This document shows, in pieces, positions 1-21,709 of a stretch of DNA of 21,709 nucleotides; position 1 is the stretch's first letter, and every line of letters begins with the position of its first letter. The notes under the pieces were generated by a model. The model was not told the DNA's origin, ran no database searches, and saw nothing but the letters and a program-made list of their open reading frames with translations. The translations under genes and the position numbers were made by a program. This DNA is from a virus, in the IMG/VR virus record IMGVR_UViG_3300017739_000137, positions 1-21,709 of that record; one strand, written 5' to 3'.

Positions 1-53
1 ACACTTCTCGACAGAACATTACACTTCTCGACACGTTTTAGCATAACTTGACA
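1..53. repeat. Direct repeats phased at 20 bp upstream of the early promoter
   Basis: The 13-mer ACACTTCTCGACA occurs exactly at 1-13 and 21-33. A degenerate third copy at 41-53 matches 8 of 13 positions and includes the promoter -35 box. The 20-bp period is close to two helical turns, so bound proteins would lie on about the same face of the DNA. An activator or repressor array, or iterons, are the natural readings. The array starts at the window edge and may continue to the left. Confidence 0.6.
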
Positions 54-183: not shown

Positions 184-1125
184 ATGCAACACTACGACAC
201 ACAATCTAACGTGTTAGGGAATTCCCTAACTTCTGCTAACGCAACAGCACCAGCTATCAGTACGCCGTCGATCGCTACGTCTGCCATGCTGGTCGAGCTA
301 TCCATCAGCACATGGACTGCACGTAAGAAGGACAAGCGAGCGTCAGAAGACGTTACCCGTTCTAACGGTGCCGATTCCGGTGCGGCCAGCGTGAACAAGA
401 ACCTGCTCAGTGGGTGCGCTGAGTTAGAGGCCGTCCGCAAGTTCGGAGCCAACGCGCGTAACATCCACTACTCGATGACCATGCCATGGTCAGATGTGGG
501 CTTGCGCCTGCTACCTACCGCCATGTACGCCAAGTACCACCAAGCCATGACCGAGCTTCAAAACGAGTTCGAGCGACTGGGCGAGGTGTTCATCAACGCG
601 TACGGCTGGGAGTACAGCCAAGCACAGGCACGACTGGGTGCACTGTGGAAAGCTGACGACTACCCACCGGTCGAGTCTATCGCGGCTAAGTTCGGGTTCC
701 GTCTCAACTACATCCCACTACCTGACGCGGGCGACTTCCGTATCGACGTGGGCACTGAAGCAATGTCACAGATGAAAACACATTACGAGGAGTTCTATTC
801 GACACAGGTCAAGCGTGCGATGGACGACGTGTGGCGTCGTGTGTACGACTCACTCACTAAGATGTCAGAGCGTCTCGACTACGGCGACCACGAGGACAAG
901 AAGATATTCCGTGACACGCTCGTGGACAACGTGCTCGACATGGTGGATCTGCTCGACGTGTGCAACGTGACCGGTGACTCTCAGATGTCAGCTATGCGAC
1001 TCAATCTGGAGGATGCGCTTCGTGGTGTGACACCTGACGCACTACGTGAGGATGCGTTCCTACGTGCTGAGACCAAGCGAGCCGTGGACAGCGCCATCAA
1101 GTCTTTACCTTCACTCGACATCTAA
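184..1125 (+). CDS. DUF3150-like protein, first gene of the MoxR/VWA cassette
   Basis: A 313-residue protein of unknown function. The region from about residue 35, beginning LVELSISTWTARKK, and the following charged helical body resemble the DUF3150 family, whose members I recall beside MoxR-type ATPases and VWA proteins in phages and bacteria; this is recognition by eye. Residues 1-34 are a Ser/Thr/Ala-rich extension. The start is supported by GGAG at 173-176 in a leader (ATGGAGAACGACAATG) identical to that of the next gene. The extension contains one copy of the 18-bp palindrome (213-230), read as LGNSLT. A later ATG at 286 is closer to the presumed family start but has no visible ribosome-binding site. 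No catalytic motif or membrane segment is seen. It probably works with the two downstream genes. Confidence 0.6.
   Translation: MQHYDTQSNVLGNSLTSANATAPAISTPSIATSAMLVELSISTWTARKKDKRASEDVTRSNGADSGAASVNKNLLSGCAELEAVRKFGANARNIHYSMTMPWSDVGLRLLPTAMYAKYHQAMTELQNEFERLGEVFINAYGWEYSQAQARLGALWKADDYPPVESIAAKFGFRLNYIPLPDAGDFRIDVGTEAMSQMKTHYEEFYSTQVKRAMDDVWRRVYDSLTKMSERLDYGDHEDKKIFRDTLVDNVLDMVDLLDVCNVTGDSQMSAMRLNLEDALRGVTPDALREDAFLRAETKRAVDSAIKSLPSLDI
213..230. promoter_or_regulatory. 18-bp palindrome, copy 1
   Basis: Perfect palindrome GTTAGGGAATTCCCTAAC. This is the only copy inside a coding region, 29 bp after the ATG of the first gene. Extra CTAAC half-sites flank it at 206-210 and 236-240. As RNA it can form a 7-bp stem with an AAUU loop; as DNA it suits a dimeric binding protein. 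Confidence 0.7.
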
Positions 1126-1150
1126 TCAACAACCACACTACTAACAAACA

Positions 1151-1167
1151 GGTGCGACACGCGCACC
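1151..1167 (+). other. Intergenic hairpin
   Basis: GGTGCG (1151-1156) pairs with CGCACC (1162-1167) around a 5-nt loop, 25 bp after the first stop codon and 10 bp before palindrome copy 2. No T-run follows, so it is not a standard intrinsic terminator. An RNA-processing or 3'-end stability element is possible. Confidence 0.4.
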
Positions 1168-1176
1168 TAAAAACAA

Positions 1177-1194
1177 GTTAGGGAATTCCCTAAC
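1177..1194. promoter_or_regulatory. 18-bp palindrome, copy 2
   Basis: Exact copy of the palindrome, 14 bp upstream of the AAA+ ATPase start and directly next to its ribosome-binding leader (GGAG at 1198-1201). Confidence 0.75.
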
Positions 1195-1208
1195 AATGGA
1201 GAACGACA

Positions 1209-2297
1209 ATGAACGCACAAAATATGTATGCACTAAACCTTGACCAAGTCGCCAATGCGATACTGCACACTGGAGACCAACGCACCACGCTTGTACAGGG
1301 GCACATGGGTACTGGTAAGTCCACACTACTTAAGATGTTAGCAGAGAAGCTACCGACCCACGTCCCGTGTTACTTCGACTGTACCACCAAGGATCTCGGT
1401 GACATCGCGATACCCAACTTCAAGACATTGGACGACGCCGATTTCGTTCGGTTTGTACCTAACGAGGAGCTGGGCATACACCACAACAAGCCTGTCATCT
1501 TAATGTTCGACGAGTTCGGCAAGGCCAACCCCGCAGTCAAGCAAGGCGTACGTCGTACGATGTTAGAGCGTATGGTCGGTGCGACTAAGCTACCCGAGGG
1601 ATCGATTGTGTTTGCCACAACAAACCTAGGGGCAGAGGGTGTCGGTGATGTACTGATGGCACACCAGCGCAATGCGATCACGGTGGTCACACTACGCAAG
1701 CCCAACAATGTCGAGTGGATCGAGTGGGGTATCAATAACAACATCGACCCGACCATACTGGGCTGGGCGAAAGACAACCCGCAGTTGTTCGATGGGTTCG
1801 AGGACGTCAAGGATCCAGAGGACAACCCGTACATCTTCCATCCCAAGGCGCAACGTGCGGCGTTTGTTACCCCGCGTTCATTGGAAGCGGCGAGCGACTA
1901 CCTGCACAAGCGTCACCTGCTAGACGATCAGACCCTAACAGCTTTCCTTATGGGTACGATCGGCGACCGTGGTGCGATGGATCTTATGGCGTTCGTCAAG
2001 CTGGCCGATCAGCTACCGTCGCTCCAGTCGATCAAGGATGACCCGTTGACTGCCAAGGTTCCTGACAGTGCGGCGGCTGTATGTATGGTTGTTTACAGGT
2101 CATTGGCTACGATGTCCGCTGACTGGGTTGACCAGTGGATGACCTACCTGCCACGGCTCGACGTCAGTGCACAGGGTATGTTCGGTGGACAGGTGACGCG
2201 TGACACGTACGCACACCGCAAGATCATCATGACCAACAAGAAGTTCACCGACTGGGCGATGGCTAACAACCACATGTTCGCGGCGGACAAGAAGTAG
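1209..2297 (+). CDS. MoxR/CobS-type AAA+ ATPase
   Basis: A 362-residue single-module AAA+ ATPase. Visible motifs are Walker A GHMGTGKS (31-38), Walker B ILMFDE (97-102) and sensor-1 asparagine in FATTN (about 139), followed by an arginine-containing stretch (HQRNA) that may hold the arginine finger. The order and spacing fit MoxR-family ATPases, which usually form hexamers and act with a VWA-domain partner in metal insertion, enzyme maturation or complex remodelling. Here the next gene encodes such a partner. The start follows GGAG (1198-1201) and palindrome copy 2; the stop overlaps the first base of palindrome copy 3. Similarity to cobaltochelatase CobS does not imply cobalamin synthesis, since no other such gene is present. 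The ATPase call is firm; the substrate is unknown. Confidence 0.88.
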   Translation: MNAQNMYALNLDQVANAILHTGDQRTTLVQGHMGTGKSTLLKMLAEKLPTHVPCYFDCTTKDLGDIAIPNFKTLDDADFVRFVPNEELGIHHNKPVILMFDEFGKANPAVKQGVRRTMLERMVGATKLPEGSIVFATTNLGAEGVGDVLMAHQRNAITVVTLRKPNNVEWIEWGINNNIDPTILGWAKDNPQLFDGFEDVKDPEDNPYIFHPKAQRAAFVTPRSLEAASDYLHKRHLLDDQTLTAFLMGTIGDRGAMDLMAFVKLADQLPSLQSIKDDPLTAKVPDSAAAVCMVVYRSLATMSADWVDQWMTYLPRLDVSAQGMFGGQVTRDTYAHRKIIMTNKKFTDWAMANNHMFAADKK

Positions 2298-2314
2298 TTA
2301 GGGAATTCCCTAAC
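2297..2314. promoter_or_regulatory. 18-bp palindrome, copy 3
   Basis: Exact copy whose first G is also the last base of the ATPase stop codon TAG. It lies 19 bp upstream of the metallopeptidase/VWA start, followed by GTTAAC and the GGAGAACGAC leader. Confidence 0.75.
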
Positions 2315-2333
2315 TCGTTAACAGGAGAACGAC

Positions 2334-3560
2334 ATGCTATCTATTGGCAAACAACTGACAGCCGAGCAACGTCTGAGCAAGGCTGTGTATGACATCATCA
2401 ACAACCCCAAGTACGTGGCGTTGGCTGGTGTAGTAATGGTCGGTGATCGCAGTGTATCTGACACCGTACCGACGGCTTACACCAACGGACGTGATGAGGT
2501 GTACGGACGTGCGTTCATCGAGTCACTCAATGACGCCGAGCTTCGGTTCTTGGTACTGCACGAGGTGTACCACAAGCTGTACAAACACCTCACCACATGG
2601 GAGTGGATGTACAAGCAAGCCGCCGAGCTTGCCAACGTCGCTTGCGATCACGTCATCAACATCAAGATCAGCGATGACAACACGGACGGGTGGGCTGTCA
2701 TGCCAGCCGACGGGTGTCGCGACTACAAGTACCGTGGTTGGGACGAGGCTCGTGTGTTCAAGGATCTGTGTGAGAACAACTCAGGTGGTGATGGTAATGG
2801 TGACGGTTCAGGTGCCAATACCAACGTTGCCACTGGAGTCAATACGCATAGAGGGTTCGACGAGCACGACTGGGAGGGTGCACAAGAGTTGACCGACGAC
2901 GAGAAGCGTGAGCTTGCACGGGACATCGACGAGGCCATACGTCAGGGTGCGCTGGTTGCTGGCAAGATTGGCGACGGCTCCGAACGTGATCGGTTCGGTG
3001 ACTTGCTTGAGGCTCAGGTCGATTGGCGTGAGGTGCTACGTGAGTTCATCCAGACCACGTGTGCGGGTAGTGACTACGGTACATGGTCACGTCCTAACAG
3101 GCGTTACCTATCGTCTGGGTACTACATGCCCAGCGGTATCAGTGACCAGATCGGTGAGCTTGTCGTGGCTATTGATACGTCAGGGTCTATCGGTCAACGT
3201 GAGTTGACACTGTTCATGAGTGAGATACATCAGATCTGTCAATCGCTCTCGCCCGAACGCATACGTGTTCTGTACTGGGATACACGCGTACGTGGTAACG
3301 AGACATACGATATGCACGAGCTTGACGAGTTACCCAAGGCGACCAAGCCGGTCGGTGGTGGTGGCACCAATGTCGAGTGTGTTCCTAACTTCATACGTGA
3401 CGAGGGTATCAAGCCCCAAGCGTGTGTGGTTCTGACTGATGGGTACATCTGGGGATCATGGGGTCAGTGGGACTGCCCTGTGCTATGGTGTGTACTGGAC
3501 AACAAAACTGCAAAGCCCGACACGGGTAAGCAAGTTCACATACAATCTGGAGACCTATAA
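2334..3560 (+). CDS. Putative zinc metallopeptidase with C-terminal VWA domain
   Basis: A 408-residue protein with the architecture of DUF2201-type proteins. The N-terminal part carries a zincin helix HEVYH (76-80), followed by a helix containing ACDHVIN (about 103-109), in which D105 could be a further metal ligand. A Gly/Asn/Asp-rich linker lies around residues 145-165. The C-terminal part is a VWA-like fold whose MIDAS motif DTSGS (281-285) supplies the D-x-S-x-S metal-binding residues, with a later GGGGTN segment typical of such domains. VWA proteins are the usual partners of MoxR ATPases, and the upstream gene supplies one. Whether the HExxH motif is proteolytically active is unknown. 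The start follows GGAGAACGAC (2323-2332) and palindrome copy 3. It overlaps the next gene by one base. Confidence 0.82.
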   Translation: MLSIGKQLTAEQRLSKAVYDIINNPKYVALAGVVMVGDRSVSDTVPTAYTNGRDEVYGRAFIESLNDAELRFLVLHEVYHKLYKHLTTWEWMYKQAAELANVACDHVINIKISDDNTDGWAVMPADGCRDYKYRGWDEARVFKDLCENNSGGDGNGDGSGANTNVATGVNTHRGFDEHDWEGAQELTDDEKRELARDIDEAIRQGALVAGKIGDGSERDRFGDLLEAQVDWREVLREFIQTTCAGSDYGTWSRPNRRYLSSGYYMPSGISDQIGELVVAIDTSGSIGQRELTLFMSEIHQICQSLSPERIRVLYWDTRVRGNETYDMHELDELPKATKPVGGGGTNVECVPNFIRDEGIKPQACVVLTDGYIWGSWGQWDCPVLWCVLDNKTAKPDTGKQVHIQSGDL

Positions 3561-3709
3561 TGGACAGTAGAGTTGATATCGTTTATGTAATCCAACGCCT
3601 CAACCGTATATTGGAGAACAGGGTGGGTATGGCGGACGCTTTGGATGAGTTTCGTGATGAGTTACTTCACAATTTGACAGTGCACCCTACAACCAACGAG
3701 GAACAATAG
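3560..3709 (+). CDS. Small protein of unknown function (49 aa)
   Basis: A 49-codon frame starting at an ATG that shares its A with the upstream TAA stop (TAATG), with GGAG at 3549-3552 as ribosome-binding site 7 bp away. The product starts MDSRVDIVYVIQRLNRILEN and is predominantly charged and helical, with no recognised domain. The coupled start and good ribosome-binding site argue that it is translated; the length leaves room for chance. It sits directly behind the MoxR/VWA pair. Confidence 0.55.
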   Translation: MDSRVDIVYVIQRLNRILENRVGMADALDEFRDELLHNLTVHPTTNEEQ

Positions 3710-3711
3710 AT

Positions 3712-3876
3712 ATGGAATACGCATTCGCTGTAGCGATCATGGATAAGGTGGTCAAGGATCACTGCAATCATCTAATGGTAAAGGGTCAGAACAAACACGA
3801 CCCACTTACTCCGGCCAGTGCCGCACGAGAAGTTGAAGCGGTTAAGAATGCGTACGAGAAAGTACGCAACGGATAA
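3712..3876 (+). CDS. Small protein of unknown function (54 aa)
   Basis: A 54-codon frame starting two bases after the previous stop, with GAGGAA at 3698-3703 upstream. The product starts MEYAFAVAIMDKVVKDHC and is mostly helical and basic towards its end, without a signal peptide or recognised motif. Its position between translated genes, its ribosome-binding site and the lack of wasted space support it. Palindrome copy 4 begins 4 bp after its stop. Confidence 0.55.
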   Translation: MEYAFAVAIMDKVVKDHCNHLMVKGQNKHDPLTPASAAREVEAVKNAYEKVRNG

Positions 3877-3879
3877 CAA

Positions 3880-3897
3880 GTTAGGGAATTCCCTAAC
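3880..3897. promoter_or_regulatory. 18-bp palindrome, copy 4
   Basis: Exact copy 25 bp before the start of the 307-residue gene. A TATAAA at 3901-3906 lies just downstream and could act as a -10 box, but no good -35 is present at the right distance. GAGGAG (3909-3914) is the ribosome-binding site. Confidence 0.75.
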
Positions 3898-3921
3898 TCT
3901 TATAAAACGAGGAGAAAACAA

Positions 3922-4845
3922 ATGAGTTTTAATTGGGTAACAGTAGAGAAGTGTCGAGAGCAAGCGTCGAGCGCATTCGATTTCGGTCACCACGGTGACC
4001 ATGGAGACAAGGCATTGTTCGCAGACTGGCAACGACAGGTAGGTGCGGCGCTATGTTCGCGTGATTCTGGTATTACGTTCATACAACGTACCAGAACATC
4101 ATCGTGGGTAGTGCGTGACGATTGTCCGTGGGCTATCGGGTTCATTGCCTACACCGACAACCGTGACAACAAGGTGGGTGGGTGGAAGCCGACCTATTGT
4201 GTACACGCATGGTCGATCATCAATGACAAGTACAGTCACGGTAGTATCAATCGCAATACCAAAACATCTACCAACTTCGACACCGCACTAAAACTTGCTA
4301 AGACATACCTACGCCGACCTGCGCCAGCTACGTTGGCGAGTGTACGACAGGGTGTGTTGCAGAAAGGTATGCGTGACGAGTTCGAGAAAGTACGCAAGGG
4401 TGCAAATGAAACAGCAACTAAGGTGGTGGATATCGTGACAAACATATATGGGTCAAGCCGTAACCATAACAAGCGGCTGTACAAAGAGTTGAAGAACCTA
4501 CTCGACATGGGGCATAGCTTTCTGGACCCCGAGTTCAAGTCAGACGTCGAGGCAATGATACTTGCTGATGAGACGTTAGGTTCAGCAACCATCGAGGACG
4601 TACCGTTTTACTGTGTCATGACATACGAGTCTCGTAATCAGACTGTGTTGGATGTGGTTAAGGGTACACAGAGCAATCCGTACAGTGCCGATATCGAACA
4701 GGCATACCTACGCTTTACCGAGGACAAACTGCCCGAGGACATCACGCGTAAACTTGCTGTACTGCAAATGCTCGATAGTGAAGACTTCGTTGACGGCGTA
4801 GGTGTGAGTGCCGGTAACGGGGTGTACTATGTCGTCGCAGAGTAA
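3922..4845 (+). CDS. Unknown protein with a C-terminal module shared with the next gene
   Basis: A 307-residue soluble-looking protein not matched to any family I know. The N-terminal half is rich in Trp, His and Asp; the centre (about 130-220) is charged and helical. Residues 230-307 form a module repeated in the next gene: an opening YxVxxY strand, a central LPEDITRKLAVLQML helix and a closing VxxVG...Y.V strand pattern. The shared hexapeptide RKLAVL uses different codons in five of six positions, so the duplication is old and kept at protein level. The start is supported by GAGGAG (3909-3914) at 7-bp spacing. It overlaps the next gene by 17 bp. Confidence 0.75.
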   Translation: MSFNWVTVEKCREQASSAFDFGHHGDHGDKALFADWQRQVGAALCSRDSGITFIQRTRTSSWVVRDDCPWAIGFIAYTDNRDNKVGGWKPTYCVHAWSIINDKYSHGSINRNTKTSTNFDTALKLAKTYLRRPAPATLASVRQGVLQKGMRDEFEKVRKGANETATKVVDIVTNIYGSSRNHNKRLYKELKNLLDMGHSFLDPEFKSDVEAMILADETLGSATIEDVPFYCVMTYESRNQTVLDVVKGTQSNPYSADIEQAYLRFTEDKLPEDITRKLAVLQMLDSEDFVDGVGVSAGNGVYYVVAE

Positions 4846-5101
4846 TGAGTTACCACACGATGATAACATCTACCGCGTTGTGGTATACCCTAGTACGAAA
4901 AGTGTCTTAGTCACATGTTTCGGCATGGAAGGCGTTGACATGGCAGTAGAGGGAGCCTACGATTCGGTGGATGAGTTACCTGAGTGGATACAGCGCAAGC
5001 TGGCGGTACTCACTATGCTCAAGGTGAAGCCACCTATGCAAGCCGTATCAGATGTGGGGCGGCGTATAGATGATGATACCTTTTGGGTGTACCGATCTTA
5101 G
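4829..5101 (+). CDS. Small protein paralogous to the C-terminal module of its neighbour
   Basis: A 90-residue protein from the ATG at 4829, with a G-rich stretch (4819-4822) as a plausible ribosome-binding site. An in-frame ATG at 4808 exists but lies deeper in the upstream gene and has no clear ribosome-binding site. From Y15 the sequence aligns along its length with residues 230-307 of the preceding protein, including LPEWIQRKLAVLTML. It is therefore a free-standing version of that module. The function is unknown; an acidic, compact alpha/beta domain suggests a binding or inhibitor role, which is inference only. It is the last gene before the 5117-5140 terminator. Confidence 0.7.
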   Translation: MSSQSNELPHDDNIYRVVVYPSTKSVLVTCFGMEGVDMAVEGAYDSVDELPEWIQRKLAVLTMLKVKPPMQAVSDVGRRIDDDTFWVYRS

Positions 5102-5116
5102 TAGTGTGAGACGTTC

Positions 5117-5140
5117 GGGGAGCTTCGGCTCCCCTTTTTT
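5117..5140 (+). terminator. Intrinsic terminator closing the first gene block
   Basis: GGGGAGC (5117-5123), UUCG tetraloop (5124-5127), GCTCCCC (5128-5134), then six Ts (5135-5140). This is a textbook Rho-independent terminator, 15 bp after the last stop of the first block. Transcription of the downstream genes needs a new promoter or antitermination. Confidence 0.93.
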
Positions 5141-5158
5141 GTGCCTGTAAAAAATGAA

Positions 5159-5176
5159 GTTAGGGAATTCCCTAAC
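5159..5176. promoter_or_regulatory. 18-bp palindrome, copy 5, at the start of the second block
   Basis: Exact copy between the 5117-5140 terminator and the VRR-NUC gene. Since transcription should stop just upstream, the promoter for the second block is expected around 5141-5190, where this palindrome is the most conspicuous element. TAAAAA at 5180-5185 is a weak -10 candidate. This is the last copy found in the window. Confidence 0.75.
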
Positions 5177-5196
5177 TCGTAAAAATGGAGAGCAAC

Positions 5197-5499
5197 ATGG
5201 CAATGACACCCGAGGCGAAAGTAAAGAAGAAAGTCGTCGCACATCTTAAGACGTTAGGCGCGTATTACTTTTACCCTGTAACCGGGGGATACGGTAAGAG
5301 CGGAGTCCCTGACATCATAGGATGTTACGAGGGCAAGTTCTTTGGTATCGAATGTAAAGCAGGAAAAAATAAGCCCACCCCATTGCAAGAAAAGAATCTG
5401 AATGATATAAAACTAAACCACGGCATAGCGTTAGTTATAAATGAAACCAACATCGACGATGTGCTGAGTGTCTTAGAGGAGAGGACAGATGGAGTTTAA
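5197..5499 (+). CDS. VRR-NUC family nuclease
   Basis: A 100-residue PD-(D/E)XK nuclease of the VRR-NUC type common in phages. Motifs are E6 in the first helix, GGYGKSGVPD with D39, and the catalytic strand IECKAG with E52 and K54; a C-terminal helix follows. Family members are structure-specific nucleases related to Holliday-junction resolvases and may process replication forks or recombination intermediates. The start at 5197 is preferred over the in-frame ATG at 5185, because the GGAG at 5187-5190 then sits 6 bp upstream, matching the leader pattern of the first genes. The end overlaps the next gene by 11 bp. Confidence 0.85.
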   Translation: MAMTPEAKVKKKVVAHLKTLGAYYFYPVTGGYGKSGVPDIIGCYEGKFFGIECKAGKNKPTPLQEKNLNDIKLNHGIALVINETNIDDVLSVLEERTDGV

Positions 5500-5728
5500 C
5501 AAGTTTCCACCAGAGGCGTACGCCGAAAATGGTTGGGTCATTGTGGGCGACGATCGTTACCGACTGCGCCCCGACGGGCTGACGTTCGAGGGGTTCACAC
5601 AAGAGGGGTTCTTTGTGTATGGCCTGACTGATGCGGACGACGAATCGATCGGGCTACTGGCGCAAGCGAGCGAACAGGACGCCTACCACCCCGAGCTTGA
5701 TGCGGATCTCGACCCCACCAGATTGTGA
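5489..5728 (+). CDS. Small acidic protein of unknown function
   Basis: A 79-residue, strongly acidic protein (starts MEFNKFPPEAYAENGWVIVG; ends in an Asp-rich stretch). The start overlaps the VRR-NUC gene and is preceded by the purine-rich GAGGAGAGG, so translation is probably coupled. Acidic small phage proteins are sometimes DNA mimics or host-enzyme inhibitors; nothing here shows that directly. No recognised domain. Confidence 0.65.
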   Translation: MEFNKFPPEAYAENGWVIVGDDRYRLRPDGLTFEGFTQEGFFVYGLTDADDESIGLLAQASEQDAYHPELDADLDPTRL

Positions 5729-5744
5729 TACCAGTTATCAAAAT

Positions 5745-10806: not shown

Positions 10807-11208
10807 ATGAGTGAAGTAGCAGGGTTAGCTGAGAAGCTAACGCGTGTTTATCTAAAAATCCGTGACGAAAAAGCCAAGCTGTCTGCGGAGTACAAAGAGA
10901 AAGAGGCCAGCCTTAACCAGCAAATGGATAAGGTAAAGACCGCTCTACTCGATTACTGCAAAGACCAAGGCGTCGAAAGCGTCAAGACTTCTGAAGGGTT
11001 GTTCTACCGTTCGGTGAAGACTAGGTACTGGACTAGCGACTGGGAGCAGATGCACAAGTTTGTGCTTGAGCATGAGGTTCCTGAGTTTATGGAAAAGCGC
11101 CTGAACCAAGCCAACGTGAAAACCTTTCTCGAAGAGAACCCCGACATTGTGCCGAAAGGTCTCAATGTGGATTCCGAATACACAATCTCAGTAAGGAAAA
11201 AATCATGA
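10807..11208 (+). CDS. Coiled-coil phage protein of unknown function
   Basis: A 133-residue protein with a highly charged N-terminal coiled coil (residues about 5-50), then a conserved-looking C-terminal domain (SEGLFYRSVKTRYW, HEVPEFMEKRLNQ, VKTFLEENPD). I recall this type from phage replication operons next to SSB-like genes, but no function is established. The N-terminal coiled coil recalls Gam-like nuclease inhibitors; that link is weak. GGAG at 10797-10800 gives the start. It overlaps the next gene by 4 bp (ATGA). Confidence 0.75.
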   Translation: MSEVAGLAEKLTRVYLKIRDEKAKLSAEYKEKEASLNQQMDKVKTALLDYCKDQGVESVKTSEGLFYRSVKTRYWTSDWEQMHKFVLEHEVPEFMEKRLNQANVKTFLEENPDIVPKGLNVDSEYTISVRKKS

Positions 11209-11513
11209 ACGGTCCTTTTGTACCAATCGAAGATCTGTCCAAGCACTTCTCTGTATCTGTATCAACGATCAGAGCTTGGGTGCGGCAAGGGCACATCCCC
11301 AAAAACACCTACATAAAAGTAGGTAACACCTACCGCTTCTCCGTTGCCGACGTGTCTTCTGCCTTGACTAATCAGCACGATGACAATGTTTCGCTTCTTG
11401 GGATATCTAATAGTCCCGAAGCAGTAATGGCTGATGGTCTGGAAGCCCAAGCCGATGCCGGTATTCCCGACGATCATTGGTCTAAAGAAATTACCGCTGA
11501 CGAAGACTTCTGA
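11205..11513 (+). CDS. MerR/excisionase-like HTH protein
   Basis: A 102-residue DNA-binding protein. Residues about 7-55 form a helix-turn-helix of the HTH_17/excisionase class: PIEDLSKHFSVSVSTIRAWV, then the wing segment VGNTYRFSVADV. The rest is an acidic tail probably without fold. Such proteins act as phage regulators or directionality factors. No integrase is seen in the window, so regulation is the safer guess. AAGGA (11193-11197) precedes the start, which overlaps the upstream stop. It is the clearest phage-encoded transcription-factor candidate here, and so one possible ligand of the 18-bp palindromes; this is inference. Confidence 0.8.
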   Translation: MNGPFVPIEDLSKHFSVSVSTIRAWVRQGHIPKNTYIKVGNTYRFSVADVSSALTNQHDDNVSLLGISNSPEAVMADGLEAQADAGIPDDHWSKEITADEDF

Positions 11514-12980: not shown

Positions 12981-15812
12981 ATGGATACAAAAACATTTTT
13001 ACAGAGGGTGTTAAGTAGCGAGGGACACTATTGCATATTTGCGGCAAAATCGGCGGAAGAGCGCAAGACACAAAAATTCTATAGCTCTATCGACGATGTT
13101 GTGGACGCCGCAACGCAGTTTGACCAGCAGGGATACGACGTCTACTACGGGCTAGCAACGTTTCACGAAGCTAACTCTCGTAAAGTTGATAATGTAAAAC
13201 ATCTTAAGTCGTTCTTCCTCGACCTTGACTGTGGCCCAACAAAAGAGTTCGCATCCCAAGAAGATGCGATAAAAGAATTACGTAAGTTCTGCACGGCTAA
13301 TTCACTGCCGAACCCGACGATGGTTAACTCGGGTCGTGGTGTGCATGTGTATTGGTTCTTGGATGAAGCTGTCTGCTACGAGGATTGGTTTCCTGTAGCG
13401 GAAAGACTGAAGCGATTGTGCGCGAAACAAAACTTTCTTGCTGACCCCGCAGTCACATCTGATGCCGCACGTGTGTTAAGAGTTCCTGACACACACAACT
13501 TCAAAACCAATCCTCCGTCGGACGTAGGCTTTTTTGGCTTAGTTGAGCGGGTTGAGACTGTCGGTTTTGACACATTCTCAGAATTGCTTGGCGGGGACAT
13601 GATACCAGTTCCCACTAAACACATACCCAAAGAGTTGAGCCAGACCATGCACAACCTGATGGGTAACCAAGAAAATGTGTTTAAAGACATTCTGGTGAAG
13701 ACTCAACGGGGTGATGGGTGTGAGCAACTGTACAACATCATTCGGCACCAAGAAGAGACAAGCGAACCTCTCTGGCGAGCAGGGTTATCGATCGCAAAGT
13801 TCTGTGTGGACAGTGACAAAGCGATGCACGTCATCTCTAAGAACCACCCTGAGTACACACCAGAAGACACGCAGGAGAAGCTCAGGCAGATTAAAGGTCC
13901 GTATACCTGTGTAAAGTTTGATGAGTTCAACCCTGACGTATGCCCAAACTGTCCGCAGTGGGGGCAGATAAAATCGCCGATTCTGTTGGGTAGGCGGCTC
14001 AAGGAAGCTGAGGTTAATGACGAGGGTGTTTACGTTGAAGCCCCGGCACTCGAACTTCCTAATCAACCTAAAACAACTTATGAGATACCTAAGTACCCAC
14101 CGCCTTACGTTCGTGGCGTTAACGGTGGCGTTTATATAAGGACCAAAAACGAAGACGGTGACGTTGAAGAGAAGAAGCTGTACCACAATGATCTGTATGT
14201 CGTGAAACGTGTACACGATCCTGAGGTAGGTGAAGCCATCGTCATGCGTCTGCACTTACCAAGAGACGGGGTGCGAGAGTTTACCTTACCTATGAGTGCT
14301 GTCACATCGACAGAAGAGTTTCGCAAAGCGCTATCCTCACGGGGCGTGACTGTAAAGAAGATGGATGATTTGATGACCTACACACTAAGTTGGGTGGATG
14401 AGTTACAAGCCACCAGCACAGCAGATCAAGCACACCGACAGTTCGGTTGGGCGGATGAGAGTATGAGTGCGTTTATCCTAGGTAACCAGAAGGTGACGCA
14501 CAACAACATCGAGTTCAATCCGCCGTCTAATCAGACTGTGGGTTTGTTTCCAGCGTTCGAGTCCAAGGGTACGTACCAAGCATGGCGTGACAACCTTGCA
14601 CTGTGGAACGATGAGAAGTTCGTTTTACAGCAGTTCGCAGTCGGCATGGGGTTTGGTAGTCCATTGATGGAGTTCCTGAACACTAACTGCGGCACCGTGT
14701 CTTTCTATAACAAAGACTCAGGTGTGGGTAAGACTGCTCTCTTGCTAGCCGCGTCCGGTATCTGGGGAGATCCTGAACAACTCGTGTTGCAGAAGGACGA
14801 TACCTACAACTTCAAGATGAACCGTGCTGAGGTGATGCACAGCCTACCTACGGGCATCGATGAGATAACCAACATGTCACCACGACAAATGTCAGAGCTT
14901 GTCTATCAAGGCACGAGCGGACAACAGCGTGGGCGTATGTCTCAGAGCGCAAACGTCGAGCGGTACAGGGGTGGGCGTTGGAGCTTGTTGATGATGTATA
15001 CCGCCAACACGAGCGTCGTGGAGCGTATCAGCATGGCAAAGGCTATGCCGAAAGCAGAGGCACAGCGGGTTTTGGAGTGTCGTGTAGACCGCATCTTTGA
15101 CTCGGTAAAGGACAAGGAAACTACCGACGCGTTCGAGAACGGCCTGTTAAATAACTACGGGCACGCCGGAATCATATACGTACAGTACATCATGAGAAAT
15201 TTACAGGCGTGTCAACAGCTTGTTATGGACGTACAGAAGCGTGTTGATACCCTCGCAGAGTTGACCTCTGAAAATAGGTTCTGGTCGGCAACCATAGCCT
15301 CCACCATATCCGGCTTGCTCATAGCTAAGAAGGCTGGGCTACACGATTTCGATGTTCAGAAGGTTTTTAAGTGGGCTGTTACGGATCTTGTAGCGCAGAA
15401 CAAACGCAACATGACCGACATGGGTGGCACCGTGTACGACGTGCTAGACGACTTCTTCAGTGAGAACATTAGCTACATCTTACAGATCAAGAGCACTGTG
15501 GATAATCGTGGCACACACAATAACGGGTTAGACGAATACGTGATACCTGAGCAGGTCGCGCGTGGGCGTTTGATAGCTCGGTACGAAACAGACACTAAGA
15601 TGTTTTACGTTAAACCCAAACCGTTGAAGGAATGGTGCGGTGAGTTGCAGATCAACTATGCGCACCTAGTGAACGAGATCATGACTAAGTGCAACGGTAA
15701 ACGTAAGAAGGTGCGGCTGACCAAAGGCACCAACCTACAGCTACCCGCATCTGATGTGCTCGCTATGAAGTTTGATATGGAGCCTGACGATGAAAATCTT
15801 GAAGACTTATGA
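12981..15812 (+). CDS. Primase-helicase fusion (AEP-like primase plus P-loop ATPase)
   Basis: A 943-residue replication protein. The N-terminal third looks like an archaeo-eukaryotic/PrimPol-type primase: catalytic D81-L-D83 in FFLDLD, SGRGVHVYW with H122, and a DAARVLRVPDTHNFK segment. C310, C321 and C324 (TCVKF, CPNCP) suggest a zinc-binding link near residue 320. The C-terminal half is a DUF927/SF3-like ATPase with Walker A DSGVGKT (579-585) and a Walker B-like GIDEIT about 40 residues later. It would both unwind and prime. The ATG at 12981 with GGGTGG upstream is chosen; an in-frame TTG at 12912 would read through the hairpin gap and has no ribosome-binding site. Confidence 0.85.
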   Translation: MDTKTFLQRVLSSEGHYCIFAAKSAEERKTQKFYSSIDDVVDAATQFDQQGYDVYYGLATFHEANSRKVDNVKHLKSFFLDLDCGPTKEFASQEDAIKELRKFCTANSLPNPTMVNSGRGVHVYWFLDEAVCYEDWFPVAERLKRLCAKQNFLADPAVTSDAARVLRVPDTHNFKTNPPSDVGFFGLVERVETVGFDTFSELLGGDMIPVPTKHIPKELSQTMHNLMGNQENVFKDILVKTQRGDGCEQLYNIIRHQEETSEPLWRAGLSIAKFCVDSDKAMHVISKNHPEYTPEDTQEKLRQIKGPYTCVKFDEFNPDVCPNCPQWGQIKSPILLGRRLKEAEVNDEGVYVEAPALELPNQPKTTYEIPKYPPPYVRGVNGGVYIRTKNEDGDVEEKKLYHNDLYVVKRVHDPEVGEAIVMRLHLPRDGVREFTLPMSAVTSTEEFRKALSSRGVTVKKMDDLMTYTLSWVDELQATSTADQAHRQFGWADESMSAFILGNQKVTHNNIEFNPPSNQTVGLFPAFESKGTYQAWRDNLALWNDEKFVLQQFAVGMGFGSPLMEFLNTNCGTVSFYNKDSGVGKTALLLAASGIWGDPEQLVLQKDDTYNFKMNRAEVMHSLPTGIDEITNMSPRQMSELVYQGTSGQQRGRMSQSANVERYRGGRWSLLMMYTANTSVVERISMAKAMPKAEAQRVLECRVDRIFDSVKDKETTDAFENGLLNNYGHAGIIYVQYIMRNLQACQQLVMDVQKRVDTLAELTSENRFWSATIASTISGLLIAKKAGLHDFDVQKVFKWAVTDLVAQNKRNMTDMGGTVYDVLDDFFSENISYILQIKSTVDNRGTHNNGLDEYVIPEQVARGRLIARYETDTKMFYVKPKPLKEWCGELQINYAHLVNEIMTKCNGKRKKVRLTKGTNLQLPASDVLAMKFDMEPDDENLEDL

Positions 15813-16097: not shown

Positions 16098-16127
16098 CCC
16101 CCTTTGGTCCCCCGAAGGGGGTTTTTT
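16098..16127 (+). terminator. Intrinsic terminator of the replication block
   Basis: CCCCC (16109-16113), GAA loop, GGGGG (16117-16121), then six Ts (16122-16127). An upstream CCCCCTT (16098-16104) offers an alternative longer stem with 16115-16121. The T-run touches the stop codon of the opposing gene. Read on the - strand the hairpin lacks a T-run, so it terminates + strand transcripts only. Confidence 0.88.
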
Positions 16128-19100
16128 CATTCAGGGGCTATGAAACCATTCATCTCTGCTTGCGAGTGACTTCGCACTAGCTCTCTCATGTTCGGCGATA
16201 GAGTAACACCATTGTACATCTCATTAGATGTTTTCATGTGTTGTTTCATAGAACGTTGAATTGACTCTGGTGTAATTGCAAAACTTGGATGCTTCTTGTT
16301 GTGCTTTTGTATGTCATCTAACACTTCAAGCAACGACGAAGTATCTCCTTGCCGTAGAGCTACGTAGTATTTCTTTCGTAGCTTTGACATATTCCGCGAC
16401 AGTGTGTTGTCGATACGCTTAACGCGTTGGTTGTTTTCTTGAATGCGCGTGTACTCAGCAGGTGCAAACCCAAAGAACTGAGCAAACAACTCACCACCAC
16501 TCAAGTCGTCATAGATGGGATCTTGGCGTCGAGAGTAGATGCCGCCATCTTGCTGGTAACGACTCAACACTTTGTATGCGTTAGAAACGCCAACAGGCAA
16601 CATGCTTTCTACGCCACGTTGGAAATTACCGGTGTACACATCGTTCAAGCCACGACCGAACCGCTTGGTCACACTCCATGCGGGACCACCAAGGTAGTAA
16701 CCTATGGTTTCTTCCATAGACGCGTCAGTGTTGTATCGGTTTGTTTGTAGAACTAAGCCTGTCAAACGTATTCGAGACGCGACATCCGCACCCGTGAGCT
16801 CGTTTACTGCGCCTTTGTACCAACCCTCGCCAACATAGTTACGTACGATCGTGTTGAAGTCGTCTTCGTCATCGCCTAACAAGAACAAGTCAGCGAATAA
16901 TTGTACAGCGCCGTACAACGGCACACCGTGAATACCTGCAAAGAATACCGCTGTACCGTGTATACCGATAAGTTGTTTCCCTGCGGTGCTTCTCATTGTG
17001 GCGGCTACGGCATCACTAAACCCACTTTCTTTTAGCTCTGCTTGGTAAACGTCGAGAGCTTGTTTGGCCGTCTTAATCATTGTGGCGTACATACGCAAGC
17101 CGTAAGACTTATACATTAAGGCTACACGCCCGATATTTTCTTGCGCTAATCTAGGCGCTGTCTCCAACGTAGAGCCGCCGTTGAACTCGTGCGTTTGCTT
17201 GAAGGCTGTCTCAACCGCAAGATCTTCTCTTTGTGCTTTTGTGAGGTTTGGTTGTTCTGCTTCTAACTTTTTGAGCGCTAGTTTATAGGATGCCACCATA
17301 GCAACTTGACGGTTGAACCGTTCTGCTTGGTTGAACATCATGGCCGAAATAGCAGTGCCTCTATCCAATGCAGAAAGCCCTTTGCGAGCTAACGATTCAT
17401 TTGGTCTAGCTTTGCCGCCTTCTATGAGACCAAGCACGTCCATCATGTAGGATCTGTTGAGGTGCCCACGCTTGGCCGCACGTTGTACGAGAGGCGCTAA
17501 TTCTTTTAACTCTTTAACACGTGCGGCAGGCAAGTCCATATCAGTACGTACTTCATACTTACCGTTAACTTCGGTGTAGTACGCATCTAACCCGTACGCA
17601 GGTGAAGCCGAATCTAGTGCCTCCTGCACTCGGTCACGGACGTTTTTATCGTCTCCCTTTTTGGGTGCTTGGTGTCTTGCCCCCATAACAACCCTAGTTG
17701 CGTCGTTGATTGCTTGGTAGCTGTTTTTTATACCGTGCTCGCCACTTAGCATTGGGAAGACAAACAAAGGAATTTGCGACGTGTTTACCATAGCGGATGC
17801 TGTGTTAAACCCGATAGTTCCAACAAACGCTAGTTGGTTAGCAACTCGCACCACGCCTTCAAACTCTTTAAACCTAGCGCCAGACGTAGAGAAGTTCATA
17901 CGTTTTAGCAGGTCGTCTTTTAACGCTTTCAACTGATATTGCTTTTGAGCACTAATATTTGGAACTTCTGCGACTTCGGCCTCAAGTTGTTGCACACGAG
18001 CGTTAAATCCTAGTCGTTCTATTTGTTGTCCTAGCGAGAACCCTTTTGTTTTGATCGCACGTAAAGCATCGGTCTCGTGACCAGCAATGTTTTCTCGCGG
18101 CTGTAGTGACTTGGCAAAAGACGTTTCAGGTAACGACTCAATTACCATACGCATAAACGCTTCTTGTGTTTTTCTATCAACACCACCAGCATCGAGTAAC
18201 TTGAGTGTTTGGTTTACAAACGAAGTAGGCGGCGCTTTCTGTGCATAGCTTAGATCAAGATCACCCTCACCAGACTTTGTAACCTCCATGTCAGGATTAC
18301 TCTCAATGTCTCGAATACGAGCCAACCATTCACTACGACTTTGATACATCTCGAAGACGTAGCTATCTTGCCCTTTAGGTGTCTTACCGTCTTTATATCG
18401 ATAACCTACTTTGTACCGCCCTTCACGCATGAGGGGGAAGTAAACTGCTAGATCAGCTTTGTCGATAAGCCGCTTTGTTATCTCGTTCTTGAGGTTTTTT
18501 GCTTCCTGCGTGTTACCCATCGTGTCATCAATACGAGAGAACAAAACATCTTTCAGTGCTTTGTGCTGATCCCTATAAAACTTCTCCATGTTTCCATAGA
18601 TGCGCCGCCCTTCAGGGTTTAGCTTCTTCCACTGCTCGTGGTTTTTCTGCCAGATATCCCATAAGTTGTTACCACTTTGGTCTGTTTTACCTTGGTACTT
18701 CTTTTTTGCGTCGGCAAAAGACAGCTTAGGGTCAACTTGGAATATCGTTGAACCGTATTCGCGGCTATAAATGATATCGTTGAACAGGGCTACTTGCTCT
18801 GGTGTCGTGGTATCAAACCACTTCTCCATTGGCTGAATTACTTTTCTGGTAGCTTCATCACGTGCGGCGATTGCACCGCGCATTTCTTCAACCGCTACAA
18901 GAAACTTCTGGGATATCGCTCCAAGGGGTTTACTGACTGTGTTTATCAAGTCAGTGAGGGCAACTAGGTCAAGGACTTTTGGCACAACAAAACCAGCTTT
19001 TTCTCCTAAGCTGTCCATTGTGTCTTCAGCCATTTGGCCAAACTTCCTACGTTCTCTACTTGTAGGAGGTTTAGAAAACTTCTTCTGCACGCCATCGATC

Positions 19101-21709
19101 ATACCCATCGCTTTCTTAACATACGTATGGGTACTCTGCATAGCCAGCACGTTTGCATCACGGAACTCAGGTGCAGGAGCGATAATCTCGTCGATTAGAA
19201 TGTCTGCTTTTGTTTGCGCTGACTCGATGCCTTTAGGTTTCATCCCAGCAAGACGACGCAAGAAGTTACCTACACTGTTAACAAAGCGTTGTAACGCATT
19301 AATGTTTGAACCATCAGGGTTGATGCTAGCAAGTTCTGCTTGGAACGCCGGATTCGACATAGCCTCAGAAACAAACTCATCAAGATTCTTAGTCCCATAT
19401 GCGGTACCAAGATTGTCCTTAACATCCTCAAACAATTTAGTAAGTTGTTTAGTTGTAGGATGAGACTTTTTAGACAACGTTGCCGATGTCACCGCATGAA
19501 CCATTTCATGCAAGAGAGTGTGTTGGCTGGTGCCGTAGGCTTCGTTTAGTTTGATTGTGTTGGTCTGTGGGTCGAAAGCCCCTGCAAGACTGCCATCCTT
19601 CGTATCAAAGAAGATCTCAACCTTTGTATTACCTACGTTATCAGCTAGTTTATTTGCTATCTGACGAACACGGCTATCCGGTGTAAGACCTGCTAGCACG
19701 CGCAGTGCTTCACCTAACTTACCATCACGTAGTAGCGACGTTGTAACTGGGTGCAACTCATTACCGAGCACAACATCACCGGTGCGTAACTCGTATGGCA
19801 TGTCGTCGAAGAACTCTTCAATCGCTTTTATTTCTGCATCGAGTTCACGCTGTTCACGTGACGCCTCTTTGCTAGCGTAGGCCGCATCATCAACGTAGTC
19901 CCGTATGACTCTTTGTGTTGCTACCTTAGCCTCAGCCTCCATTTCTGAAGGAGTTCTAGCCTTTCTTTCCTCGATTTTGATTCTTTGACTTACTAACCTG
20001 CTAACACGGCGAAGCTCTTCTCTTTTCTGTTTAGTGCGTTTTTCTATCCACGCATTGGTTTCTTTAGATAGATTCTTCTTAGCCCATGCTAAAACTTGTT
20101 TGGCATTACCTACATTTGATTGTGCGAAATAGGCTATTGTCTCTTCGCTCACACCTTTTTGTGCTCTAAAGTTTGAACTTCTATCTACAACATCATGAAT
20201 GGCTCTATCCAAAGCATCGATAACACGTTCATCCCTACCAAAGTAGGCTTCAATTGCCGCGTTCTCGTCCGTTTTTGATCTATCTTTCTCTCTGGACGTT
20301 ATTTTTTCTAGGCGAGCTTCAACTGCATCGACATCTGCATCTGATACAGGATCTTTGTCAGCCGGAACCTCAAAGAGCTTGGGCCGAGACAGTACACCGC
20401 GCTTTACCACACCTTTGGTAGTTCTTGACTTTTTTTCTTTTTTCGCCGGGGCCGCAGGAGTCTTAGCTTTTTGTGTAACTTGTTTAGGCGCAGTAGGTTT
20501 CTTTGCCTGCTTTGTACCCCTAGTAGTTTTTGTTCGTTTAGTGTCTTTTTGTTTTGCTATTTCTTGCTCACGCCCTCGAACGCGTTCAACAAACAAACCT
20601 GTTAGTTTAGGGCTTACTTCTTCCCCTGCGTTGACACGCAATGTAAGTTGACCACCAATGGTGTTTTCTTCTTCTTTGGTGAGTGGTTTAGTTTTATCTT
20701 CTAGTCTAGCTAGTAGTTGTTGGTCTGTTTTACTTAGTGCAGGTTGCTCAACAGCCTCTCTTCGTACAGGTTCTCCAACGCCTCTTCCAGTGTCTGCCAC
20801 TCCTGTTCCTTCAGGTGCGACAGCGACGGTGGTATCTGGCTGTGTAGGAGGTACTGCTCGCTCTGCCCCCACATCTGGTACAGCAGTTGGAACGCCAACT
20901 CCACTTGGAACTTGCTGAGGTTCTGCACCTCTTGCATCTGGAACTCCTGTCTCAGGGGCTGGTCCGCGTCTCTGTGTCGTCGGCGTAAATAGATCACCTT
21001 GCCTCTCCGATACTCCCTCTAACAATCGTGCCACATTAGCACGAGCTTGTTGACTACCTTTCTTACCTTTAGCAAAGTTCTGTAAACGTCTTTGCGTCTG
21101 AGGTTGATTGAGATCTCTATTAATCAGAAGCCTACGTTCAGGCGACTTTGGAGCAAAACCTAAGTCATCAAGGCGCTTTGCAGTAAGTATATCCGGTGCT
21201 GGTGTAGGCTCTTGTGCCTTAGGTGCAGGTTCTTTGAAAGGTTCACGAGTACGGCGCGGAATACCACCACGCGGCCCGATTAGCGCTTGCTGTTCCTGTT
21301 GCTGTTCGAACCCCATATCCTGTTGTTCTGGAGTACGAGGAGGCTGTGTAGTAGGTTCTTCTTTGGCGCGTCGTGGGATACCCCCACGTGGTCCAAACAT
21401 CTCACGTTGAACTTGGTCGCGTTCTGCACGCTCGATGGGCAAATCCATCTGTTCAGTTGGTTCTGGTCTAGGCGCTTCTCTACGGGGCTGTGCCGATTCT
21501 ATTTCACGTTCTAGCGTGAACGCATCAATCTGTTCGTCTTGTGCTCTGGCTCGTGCACGCTGTTCTTCTGCGGCACGTACTTCAGATTCACGCACTTGGG
21601 CTTCGCGGGCGCGTTCTTCTGGCGAAGCTCTTTCTACAGAAGCATCTGGGCTTAATCTAGCAGGTATTCGAGAGGTCTGACCGTCTCTAGTTGTGCGAAC
21701 AACTTCGTC
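16127..21709 (-). CDS. Giant polyvalent virion-type protein with zincin motif (partial)
   Basis: The frame is open from the right edge to the TGA at 16127-16129: 1860 visible residues, true start outside the window. The N-terminal 430 residues or so are Pro/Gln/Lys-rich and probably disordered, with a repeated GPRGGIPRR motif (about 106 and 145). A zincin-like segment follows: HEMVH (about 734-738) and a downstream NLDEFVSEAM glutamate. The C-terminal half is long and helical, with NQAERFNRQ (about 1460) and GRVALMYKSYGLR (about 1526), resembling the PLxRFG/large-polyvalent-protein class of marine phages. A hydrophobic stretch lies around 1575-1610. Such proteins are presumed internal virion proteins ejected with the DNA; that role is inference. 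It runs opposite to the replication genes, fitting a late structural block. Confidence 0.8.
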   Translation of the reverse strand, partial: DEVVRTTRDGQTSRIPARLSPDASVERASPEERAREAQVRESEVRAAEEQRARARAQDEQIDAFTLEREIESAQPRREAPRPEPTEQMDLPIERAERDQVQREMFGPRGGIPRRAKEEPTTQPPRTPEQQDMGFEQQQEQQALIGPRGGIPRRTREPFKEPAPKAQEPTPAPDILTAKRLDDLGFAPKSPERRLLINRDLNQPQTQRRLQNFAKGKKGSQQARANVARLLEGVSERQGDLFTPTTQRRGPAPETGVPDARGAEPQQVPSGVGVPTAVPDVGAERAVPPTQPDTTVAVAPEGTGVADTGRGVGEPVRREAVEQPALSKTDQQLLARLEDKTKPLTKEEENTIGGQLTLRVNAGEEVSPKLTGLFVERVRGREQEIAKQKDTKRTKTTRGTKQAKKPTAPKQVTQKAKTPAAPAKKEKKSRTTKGVVKRGVLSRPKLFEVPADKDPVSDADVDAVEARLEKITSREKDRSKTDENAAIEAYFGRDERVIDALDRAIHDVVDRSSNFRAQKGVSEETIAYFAQSNVGNAKQVLAWAKKNLSKETNAWIEKRTKQKREELRRVSRLVSQRIKIEERKARTPSEMEAEAKVATQRVIRDYVDDAAYASKEASREQRELDAEIKAIEEFFDDMPYELRTGDVVLGNELHPVTTSLLRDGKLGEALRVLAGLTPDSRVRQIANKLADNVGNTKVEIFFDTKDGSLAGAFDPQTNTIKLNEAYGTSQHTLLHEMVHAVTSATLSKKSHPTTKQLTKLFEDVKDNLGTAYGTKNLDEFVSEAMSNPAFQAELASINPDGSNINALQRFVNSVGNFLRRLAGMKPKGIESAQTKADILIDEIIAPAPEFRDANVLAMQSTHTYVKKAMGMIDGVQKKFSKPPTSRERRKFGQMAEDTMDSLGEKAGFVVPKVLDLVALTDLINTVSKPLGAISQKFLVAVEEMRGAIAARDEATRKVIQPMEKWFDTTTPEQVALFNDIIYSREYGSTIFQVDPKLSFADAKKKYQGKTDQSGNNLWDIWQKNHEQWKKLNPEGRRIYGNMEKFYRDQHKALKDVLFSRIDDTMGNTQEAKNLKNEITKRLIDKADLAVYFPLMREGRYKVGYRYKDGKTPKGQDSYVFEMYQSRSEWLARIRDIESNPDMEVTKSGEGDLDLSYAQKAPPTSFVNQTLKLLDAGGVDRKTQEAFMRMVIESLPETSFAKSLQPRENIAGHETDALRAIKTKGFSLGQQIERLGFNARVQQLEAEVAEVPNISAQKQYQLKALKDDLLKRMNFSTSGARFKEFEGVVRVANQLAFVGTIGFNTASAMVNTSQIPLFVFPMLSGEHGIKNSYQAINDATRVVMGARHQAPKKGDDKNVRDRVQEALDSASPAYGLDAYYTEVNGKYEVRTDMDLPAARVKELKELAPLVQRAAKRGHLNRSYMMDVLGLIEGGKARPNESLARKGLSALDRGTAISAMMFNQAERFNRQVAMVASYKLALKKLEAEQPNLTKAQREDLAVETAFKQTHEFNGGSTLETAPRLAQENIGRVALMYKSYGLRMYATMIKTAKQALDVYQAELKESGFSDAVAATMRSTAGKQLIGIHGTAVFFAGIHGVPLYGAVQLFADLFLLGDDEDDFNTIVRNYVGEGWYKGAVNELTGADVASRIRLTGLVLQTNRYNTDASMEETIGYYLGGPAWSVTKRFGRGLNDVYTGNFQRGVESMLPVGVSNAYKVLSRYQQDGGIYSRRQDPIYDDLSGGELFAQFFGFAPAEYTRIQENNQRVKRIDNTLSRNMSKLRKKYYVALRQGDTSSLLEVLDDIQKHNKKHPSFAITPESIQRSMKQHMKTSNEMYNGVTLSPNMRELVRSHSQAEMNGFIAPE
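21251..21394 (-). repeat. Two copies of a GPRGGIPRR motif in the giant protein
   Basis: The nine residues GPRGGIPRR are encoded at 21368-21394 and again at 21251-21277, 39 codons apart, separated by a Gln/Glu/Pro-rich linker. Seven of nine codons differ, all synonymously, so the repeat is kept at protein level and is not a recent DNA duplication. Confidence 0.75.

Follow-up and report, generated by a model that had tools for sequence, protein, structure and literature searches.

The early block and its palindromes

The stretch of viral DNA analysed here (the window, 21,709 nucleotides) is an entire 21.7-kb record, classed as linear. It carries a rightward early/replication block that encodes a MoxR ATPase, a metallopeptidase-VWA protein, a VRR-NUC-like protein, a family A DNA polymerase, a PD-(D/E)XK nuclease, an SNF2 helicase, an HTH_17 protein and a DUF927 primase-helicase. 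On the plus strand, g1 (184..1125, Shine-Dalgarno sequence GGAGAACGACA) encodes an early protein of 313 residues and unknown function, and is followed by genes for a 362-residue MoxR-like AAA ATPase (1209..2297; PF00004), a putative metallopeptidase-VWA protein of 408 residues (DUF2201; 2334..3560; PF13203 and PF09967), a 307-aa protein of unknown function (3922..4845) and a VRR-NUC-like nuclease (5185..5499, probable start 5197), the last being 39% identical to the annotated VRR-NUC protein of Rhizobium phage RHph_TM3_14A. This phage, which has a similar gene set, is also the top match for the polymerase among isolates. Convergent with the early block, a minus-strand gene (16127-21595) encodes a protein of 1822 residues that contains a large polyvalent protein domain (LPD39). 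Long bacterial contigs, possibly with proviruses, were also found to carry relatives of the phage DNA polymerase (L366, L379 and L380; Dehalococcoidia MAG, Vreelandella massiliensis and Motiliproteus coralliicola), and the flanks fetched around these related polymerases contained no palindrome arrays.

Five exact copies of an 18-bp palindrome are present in the window, as an earlier note on this DNA had reported, and a scan allowing up to three mismatches found no others there. This is well above chance expectation, 100 dinucleotide shuffles having yielded no copy. The same note placed four copies shortly before start codons, which agrees with the distances of 14, 19, 24 and 20 nt found for copies 2–5, all of which precede ATG codons with a Shine-Dalgarno sequence. 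Copy 2 (1177..1194) ends 14 nt ahead of the MoxR-like gene, copy 3 (2297..2314) overlaps the MoxR stop codon and lies 19 nt ahead of the VWA gene, and copy 4 (3880..3897) lies 24 nt ahead of the 307-aa gene. Copy 5 (5159..5176) is found between the VRR-NUC-like gene and an intrinsic terminator on the plus strand (5117..5140), directly upstream of it; the distance of 20 nt is to the Shine-Dalgarno-preceded ATG at 5197, the nearer ATG at 5185 having no such sequence. A GC-rich hairpin with a T run occurs at the equivalent place in L016, L030, L289, L288 and L286. Copy 1 (213..230) is instead intragenic, in frame within the open reading frame at 184-1125 and 29 nt past the first base of its ATG, and this type of placement near the g1 start is conserved in many relatives.

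Two other repeats were noted. The record opens (window 1-35) with two copies of ACACTTCTCGACA spaced 22 bp apart, and a sigma70-like TTGACA/GATACT pair lies directly downstream at 48-76. A second motif, GATACCAGTT, is found at 5727-5736 and 13601-13610 and also in L010, L017, L276 and L277; it often has an AGCG-rich stretch after it and is enriched in the noncoding control regions of this phage group.

A family of arm types across relatives

The exact 18-mer was found in at least 61 IMG/VR stretches, often several times per contig, and its variants mostly retain GTTAGGG/CCCTAAC with an altered centre, giving a core of GTTAGGG-N3-5-CCCTAAC. On contigs with at least three copies, the spacer of 261 perfect-arm sites is 4 nt in 224, 3 nt in 21, 5 nt in 16 and 6–8 nt in none, the invariance of the arms in this set being partly a matter of selection because the contigs were picked by the motif. 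Scanning the collection for spacers of 5–9 nt returned mostly single, chance-like matches, though true 5-nt spacers occur. The central AATT, which the earlier note had expected to be kept if the site were a DNA operator, is replaced in relatives by a spacer of 3–5 variable bases. The EcoRI-type GAATTC to which the note drew attention is indeed confined to the five palindromes in the window; however, since only about four sites would be expected by chance, its absence elsewhere carries little meaning, and with the core not conserved in relatives a significance of EcoRI was rejected.

A motif-blind sample of 80 loci, fetched by the VWA protein alone, gives a broader picture of the sites. A 6-nt arm recurs as an inverted repeat at least three times in 71 of the 80 loci, compared with none of 40 shuffled loci, and it varies between phages while being nearly uniform within each. 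The arm types comprise GTTAGTG, GTAGTG, GTTAGGG, TTTAGGG, GTTAGTCC, GTAGTCC and GTTAGGC, together with GTTATAC, TGTATACA, GTTATGCC, GTTATCC, GTGGGAC, GATAAGTA and TTTACGC; these type labels rest on exact arms, and degenerate sites can be missed. A few phages have two palindrome types, as seen on contigs L346, L348 and L329 (GTTAGTC with GTTATGC, or GTTAGTC with GTAGTG). The palindrome of the window is one version of a switch-like family of sites that is spread across the early genes of many uncultivated phages. An array comparable to these palindromes was not found in KPP25.

In three near-complete genomes of 60–63 kb (G001, G002 and G015), no site falls outside the early/replication block apart from one in G001, near the record start and beside the primase gene, a few kb of G001 and G002 having been searched by pattern only. 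Each phage has 5–13 copies in its early block, most of them without a nearby promoter, and counts from the sequence collections are lower bounds. Placement was assessed for 275 sites, with genes on metagenomic contigs taken from simple calls made for this analysis. Called open reading frames make up 77% of the sequence but contain only 32% of the sites. Among intergenic sites, half end 10–49 nt ahead of the next called start, and 69 of the 275 sites begin at most ~10 nt from a stop codon. Of the sites inside genes, many lie 26–41 nt past the gene start, often that of g1.

Concentration of several sites in the ~7–15 kb around the replication genes, and their near confinement to that block in the three genomes, is what might be seen for sites of partition, replication or packaging that lie between early genes by coincidence. 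Such sites would need neither to keep so close to gene starts and stop codons nor to conserve an intragenic position near the g1 start, and we consider this explanation highly improbable.

Concerted change of sites and Reg

In sister phages whose proteins are mostly 80–95% identical, the syntenic palindromes have been swapped together with their flanks largely kept, as is directly visible in alignments covering the start of each of five genes (g1, MoxR, VWA, the 307-aa gene and VRR). The arm at these positions is GTTAGGG in the window and L016, GTAGTCC in L289 and GTTAGTG in L288. Such concerted swaps point to a trans-acting factor with changed specificity. A hybrid arrangement was also observed (L286 / L021), in which three sites are GTTAGTG and the one before VRR is GTTAGGG, a pattern such as recombination would leave.

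The candidate for this factor is an unannotated protein of 165–200 residues, here called Reg, which is the first early gene in two genomes and is typically the first gene of the rightward early operon; its profile matched at least 116 open reading frames. The window begins downstream of Reg, the gene itself lying outside, upstream of base 1: the L030 contig includes the first 30 bases of the window and has Reg ~0.9 kb further upstream, and L054, near-identical to the window over g1 and MoxR, has the last 32 Reg residues at its edge. In eight non-Reg proteins, genomes G009 (GTTAGGG) and G015 (GTAGTCC) show the same closeness to the window, with identities of 80% for g1, 82% for MoxR, 88% for VWA, 69% for the 307-aa protein, 92–93% for VRR, 95% for the polymerase, 96–97% for the RecB-like nuclease and 92–93% for SNF2. 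Sharp differences between the two are limited to Reg and the palindromes: by BLAST, the L030 Reg has 60% identity to its counterpart in G009 and no match in G015, whose Reg is distant and detectable by profile alone.

Comparison of 34 diverged Regs placed the four columns that best separate GTTAGGG from GTTAGTG phages in a single segment, QQQxG(S/A)xx(K/N)D (z = 8.8, 8.5, 5.5 and 5.4). On the same loci the best column reached z = 3.7 for g1, 5.9 for MoxR and 4.5 for VWA, compared with 9–13 for Reg, and these three proteins were rejected as binders on account of their weaker association with operator type. The HTH_17 protein (11205..11513, plus strand) was likewise rejected, its helix SVSTIRAWVRQGHIP being identical in GTTAGGG and GTTAGTG phages, with two changes in the GTAGTCC phage.

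Within the Reg segment, Ser110 accompanies GTTAGGG and Ala110 accompanies GTTAGTG. A two-residue rule was written before 80 further Reg loci were fetched by the peptide [KR]RYWQQQ, the palindromes not being consulted, and the scored contigs were those with at least two sites and little overlap with earlier ones. The prewritten rule held in 27 of 27 contigs where it was applicable, many of these new contigs being mutually related. Residue 110 alone, a reading chosen after seeing the data, agreed with the sites in 42 of 42 new contigs with at least two sites and in 17 of 18 single-site contigs, one of them a tie. On a Reg tree from which the helix columns were left out, operator type changes about six times, and 62 of 67 non-redundant Regs fit the residue–operator pairing. 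The three supported independent switch pairs were nearly always concordant and never opposed, and are not significant alone because they are too few (sign test p 0.25); the clearest switch is that of L055, an Ala Reg with GTTAGTG sites that sits within a group of Ser Regs with GTTAGGG sites, L087 among them. The exceptions to the pairing are L122, L098 and L157 (Gly), and L288. One contig (L122 / G006) carries two Reg genes, both with Ala110 despite its GTTAGGG sites.

The L030 Reg is predicted to be all-alpha (pLDDT 90, pTM 0.66), and the prediction for the diverged L294 Reg shows the helices in an identical order, beginning at the central region. Residues 110, 113, 117 and, more loosely, 116 point toward one side of a long helix (95–124), at helical angles of 200, 140, 180 and 80 degrees, respectively. 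Searches of Pfam, PHROG and PDB sequences gave no match for Reg, fold searches gave no confident match, and tblastn of isolate phage records with two Regs gave none. From the covariation, Reg very probably binds the palindromes, and we infer that it does so as a dimer, in which each subunit would read one 7-bp arm through one side of helix 95–124, with Ser or Ala at residue 110 accompanying the choice between GTTAGGG and GTTAGTG.

Target, mode of action and relation to known systems

In several arm classes the two arms are complementary up to a centre of 1–2 nt (GTTATCCA-S-TGGATAAC, GATAAGTA-AT-TACTTATC and TGTATACATATGTATACA), which favours double-stranded DNA since an RNA stem-loop cannot use such pairing. 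A site is also found upstream of Reg in nearly all of 43 Reg loci, usually 117–175 nt before the Reg start. At 13 loci with a promoter matching at least 10 of 12 consensus positions, the site nearest the Reg promoter begins 33–64 bp (median 48) upstream of the −35 box and, being ahead of that box, is not transcribed from the early promoter. Among single-mismatch sites, transversions predominate (34, compared with 4 G-U changes). The earlier note had offered an RNA hairpin with an AAUU loop as one alternative. On such a reading, Reg or a nuclease would bind a stem-loop close to the beginning of each gene's RNA, which would act in translation, processing or stability. Many sites do lie 10–40 nt ahead of start codons, a spacer of 3–5 nt is natural for loops and is the main point for RNA, and the covariation of Reg is by itself silent on DNA versus RNA. 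However, the near-continuous pairing of arms in several classes, the site outside the early transcript and the scarcity of G-U variants all speak against a hairpin, which we regard as improbable; the target is very probably double-stranded DNA.

The site ahead of the Reg promoter occupies a class I activator-like position, and could also suit activation or looping. The sites might then be activator sites, with Reg switching on transcription from at least the early promoter of its own gene. Several Reg promoters, however, agree with the consensus at 11–12 of 12 positions and ought to work unaided, and most other sites are 10–49 nt away from the start codon that follows, too close for a promoter to fit in between. 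A promoter-linked activator, also raised in the earlier note, is thus unlikely.

The five palindromes are best explained overall as operators of Reg, a phage-encoded sequence-specific regulator, and probably are such operators. Among the possibilities listed in the earlier note, an operator for a dimeric regulator gives the best fit to the syntenic gene-start sites, the symmetric arm changes and the single protein helix that tracks the sites. The covariation that the note had proposed to look for was found in so far as both arms change symmetrically, which favours an operator, and failed in that the AATT core is not kept. Variation of the spacer over 3–5 nt is unusual for a rigid dimer and counts against the operator explanation.

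Repression of elongation together with autoregulation is favoured because the placement of the sites resembles that of roadblock sites such as the L5 stoperators; by this analogy, we give roadblock-type repression about an even chance. In the mechanism that we propose, one site would lie upstream of the early promoter and others at several early gene starts, either immediately ahead of the Shine-Dalgarno sequence or inside the gene, ~30 nt from its start, where bound Reg would most likely block elongating RNA polymerase gene by gene. We infer that Reg would in this way limit its own synthesis and turn down the early/replication operon, and it may also damp the early operon of another phage that infects the same cell and shares its site type.

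The phiC31 repressor sites are conserved inverted repeats in the early region. Genomes of phiC31 and L5 have 18–30 dispersed repressor-binding sites, and phiC31 is temperate with three repressor isoforms (PMC4557955). The palindromes here share with phiC31 the presence of multiple dispersed inverted-repeat sites in the early region, although Reg is much smaller than the phiC31 repressor. They resemble the stoperators of Cluster A phages (L5, Bxb1; PMC6550527, PMC9283540) in being numerous, dispersed and often intergenic, in that few are associated with promoters, in the involvement of a phage DNA-binding protein (putative here), and in the joint divergence of site consensus and protein between relatives. 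Stoperators, however, are 13-bp asymmetric sites that are mostly oriented with transcription and are bound by a monomer with an HTH domain in temperate phages, whereas the palindromes here are symmetric sites of 15–18 bp, Reg does not fall into a recognisable HTH family and the integrase searches were negative. Repressor gp33 of BPs (PMC4557955) likewise uses two half sites with a variable spacer and has further operators through the genome, but its half sites are 12-bp palindromes or variants and the phage is temperate with integration-dependent immunity. KorB of RK2 (PMC11790492) is a sequence-specific DNA-binding protein capable of long-range silencing, but it is a DNA-sliding clamp that works with KorA, and nothing here suggests a clamp. 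Sites of the same architecture are found in RHph_TM3_14A (L274), a phage of related gene order, in which GTTACC-N5/6-GGTAAC occurs 18 times, compared with none in shuffles, with many copies at gene boundaries; its sites, however, extend over early and structural genes. Neither HMM nor hhalign searches found a Reg homologue in this phage, which appears to have a parallel palindrome system. Literature searches on dispersed palindromic phage operators found no description of the Reg–palindrome system.

Tyrosine integrase (PF00589) was absent from 29 records and serine resolvase (PF00239) from 28, the controls being positive in both cases. This result is compatible with extrachromosomal maintenance, and lysogenic immunity of the L5 type is not established because no integrase was found. 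An immunity-like effect is nevertheless hypothesised because the operator types are diverse. We tentatively suggest, as one joint reading, that Reg is a previously undescribed phage protein family with a readable specificity helix and that Reg and its palindromes form an immunity-like system, by which a phage might shut down co-infecting phages of the same group and not others; at least 12 operator types, switched together with Reg, would then split the lineage into groups.

With these results, a repeat that lacked an explanation becomes part of a regulatory system found across the lineage, for which a candidate binder is named and a protein–DNA code has predictive value. The natural operator swaps provide a clean data set in which a regulator and its dispersed sites change specificity together, and how such joint change comes about has long been asked in work on how phage immunity evolves. 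Dispersed-operator control is familiar from actinobacteriophages, and the system described here would extend it beyond them to common environmental phages.
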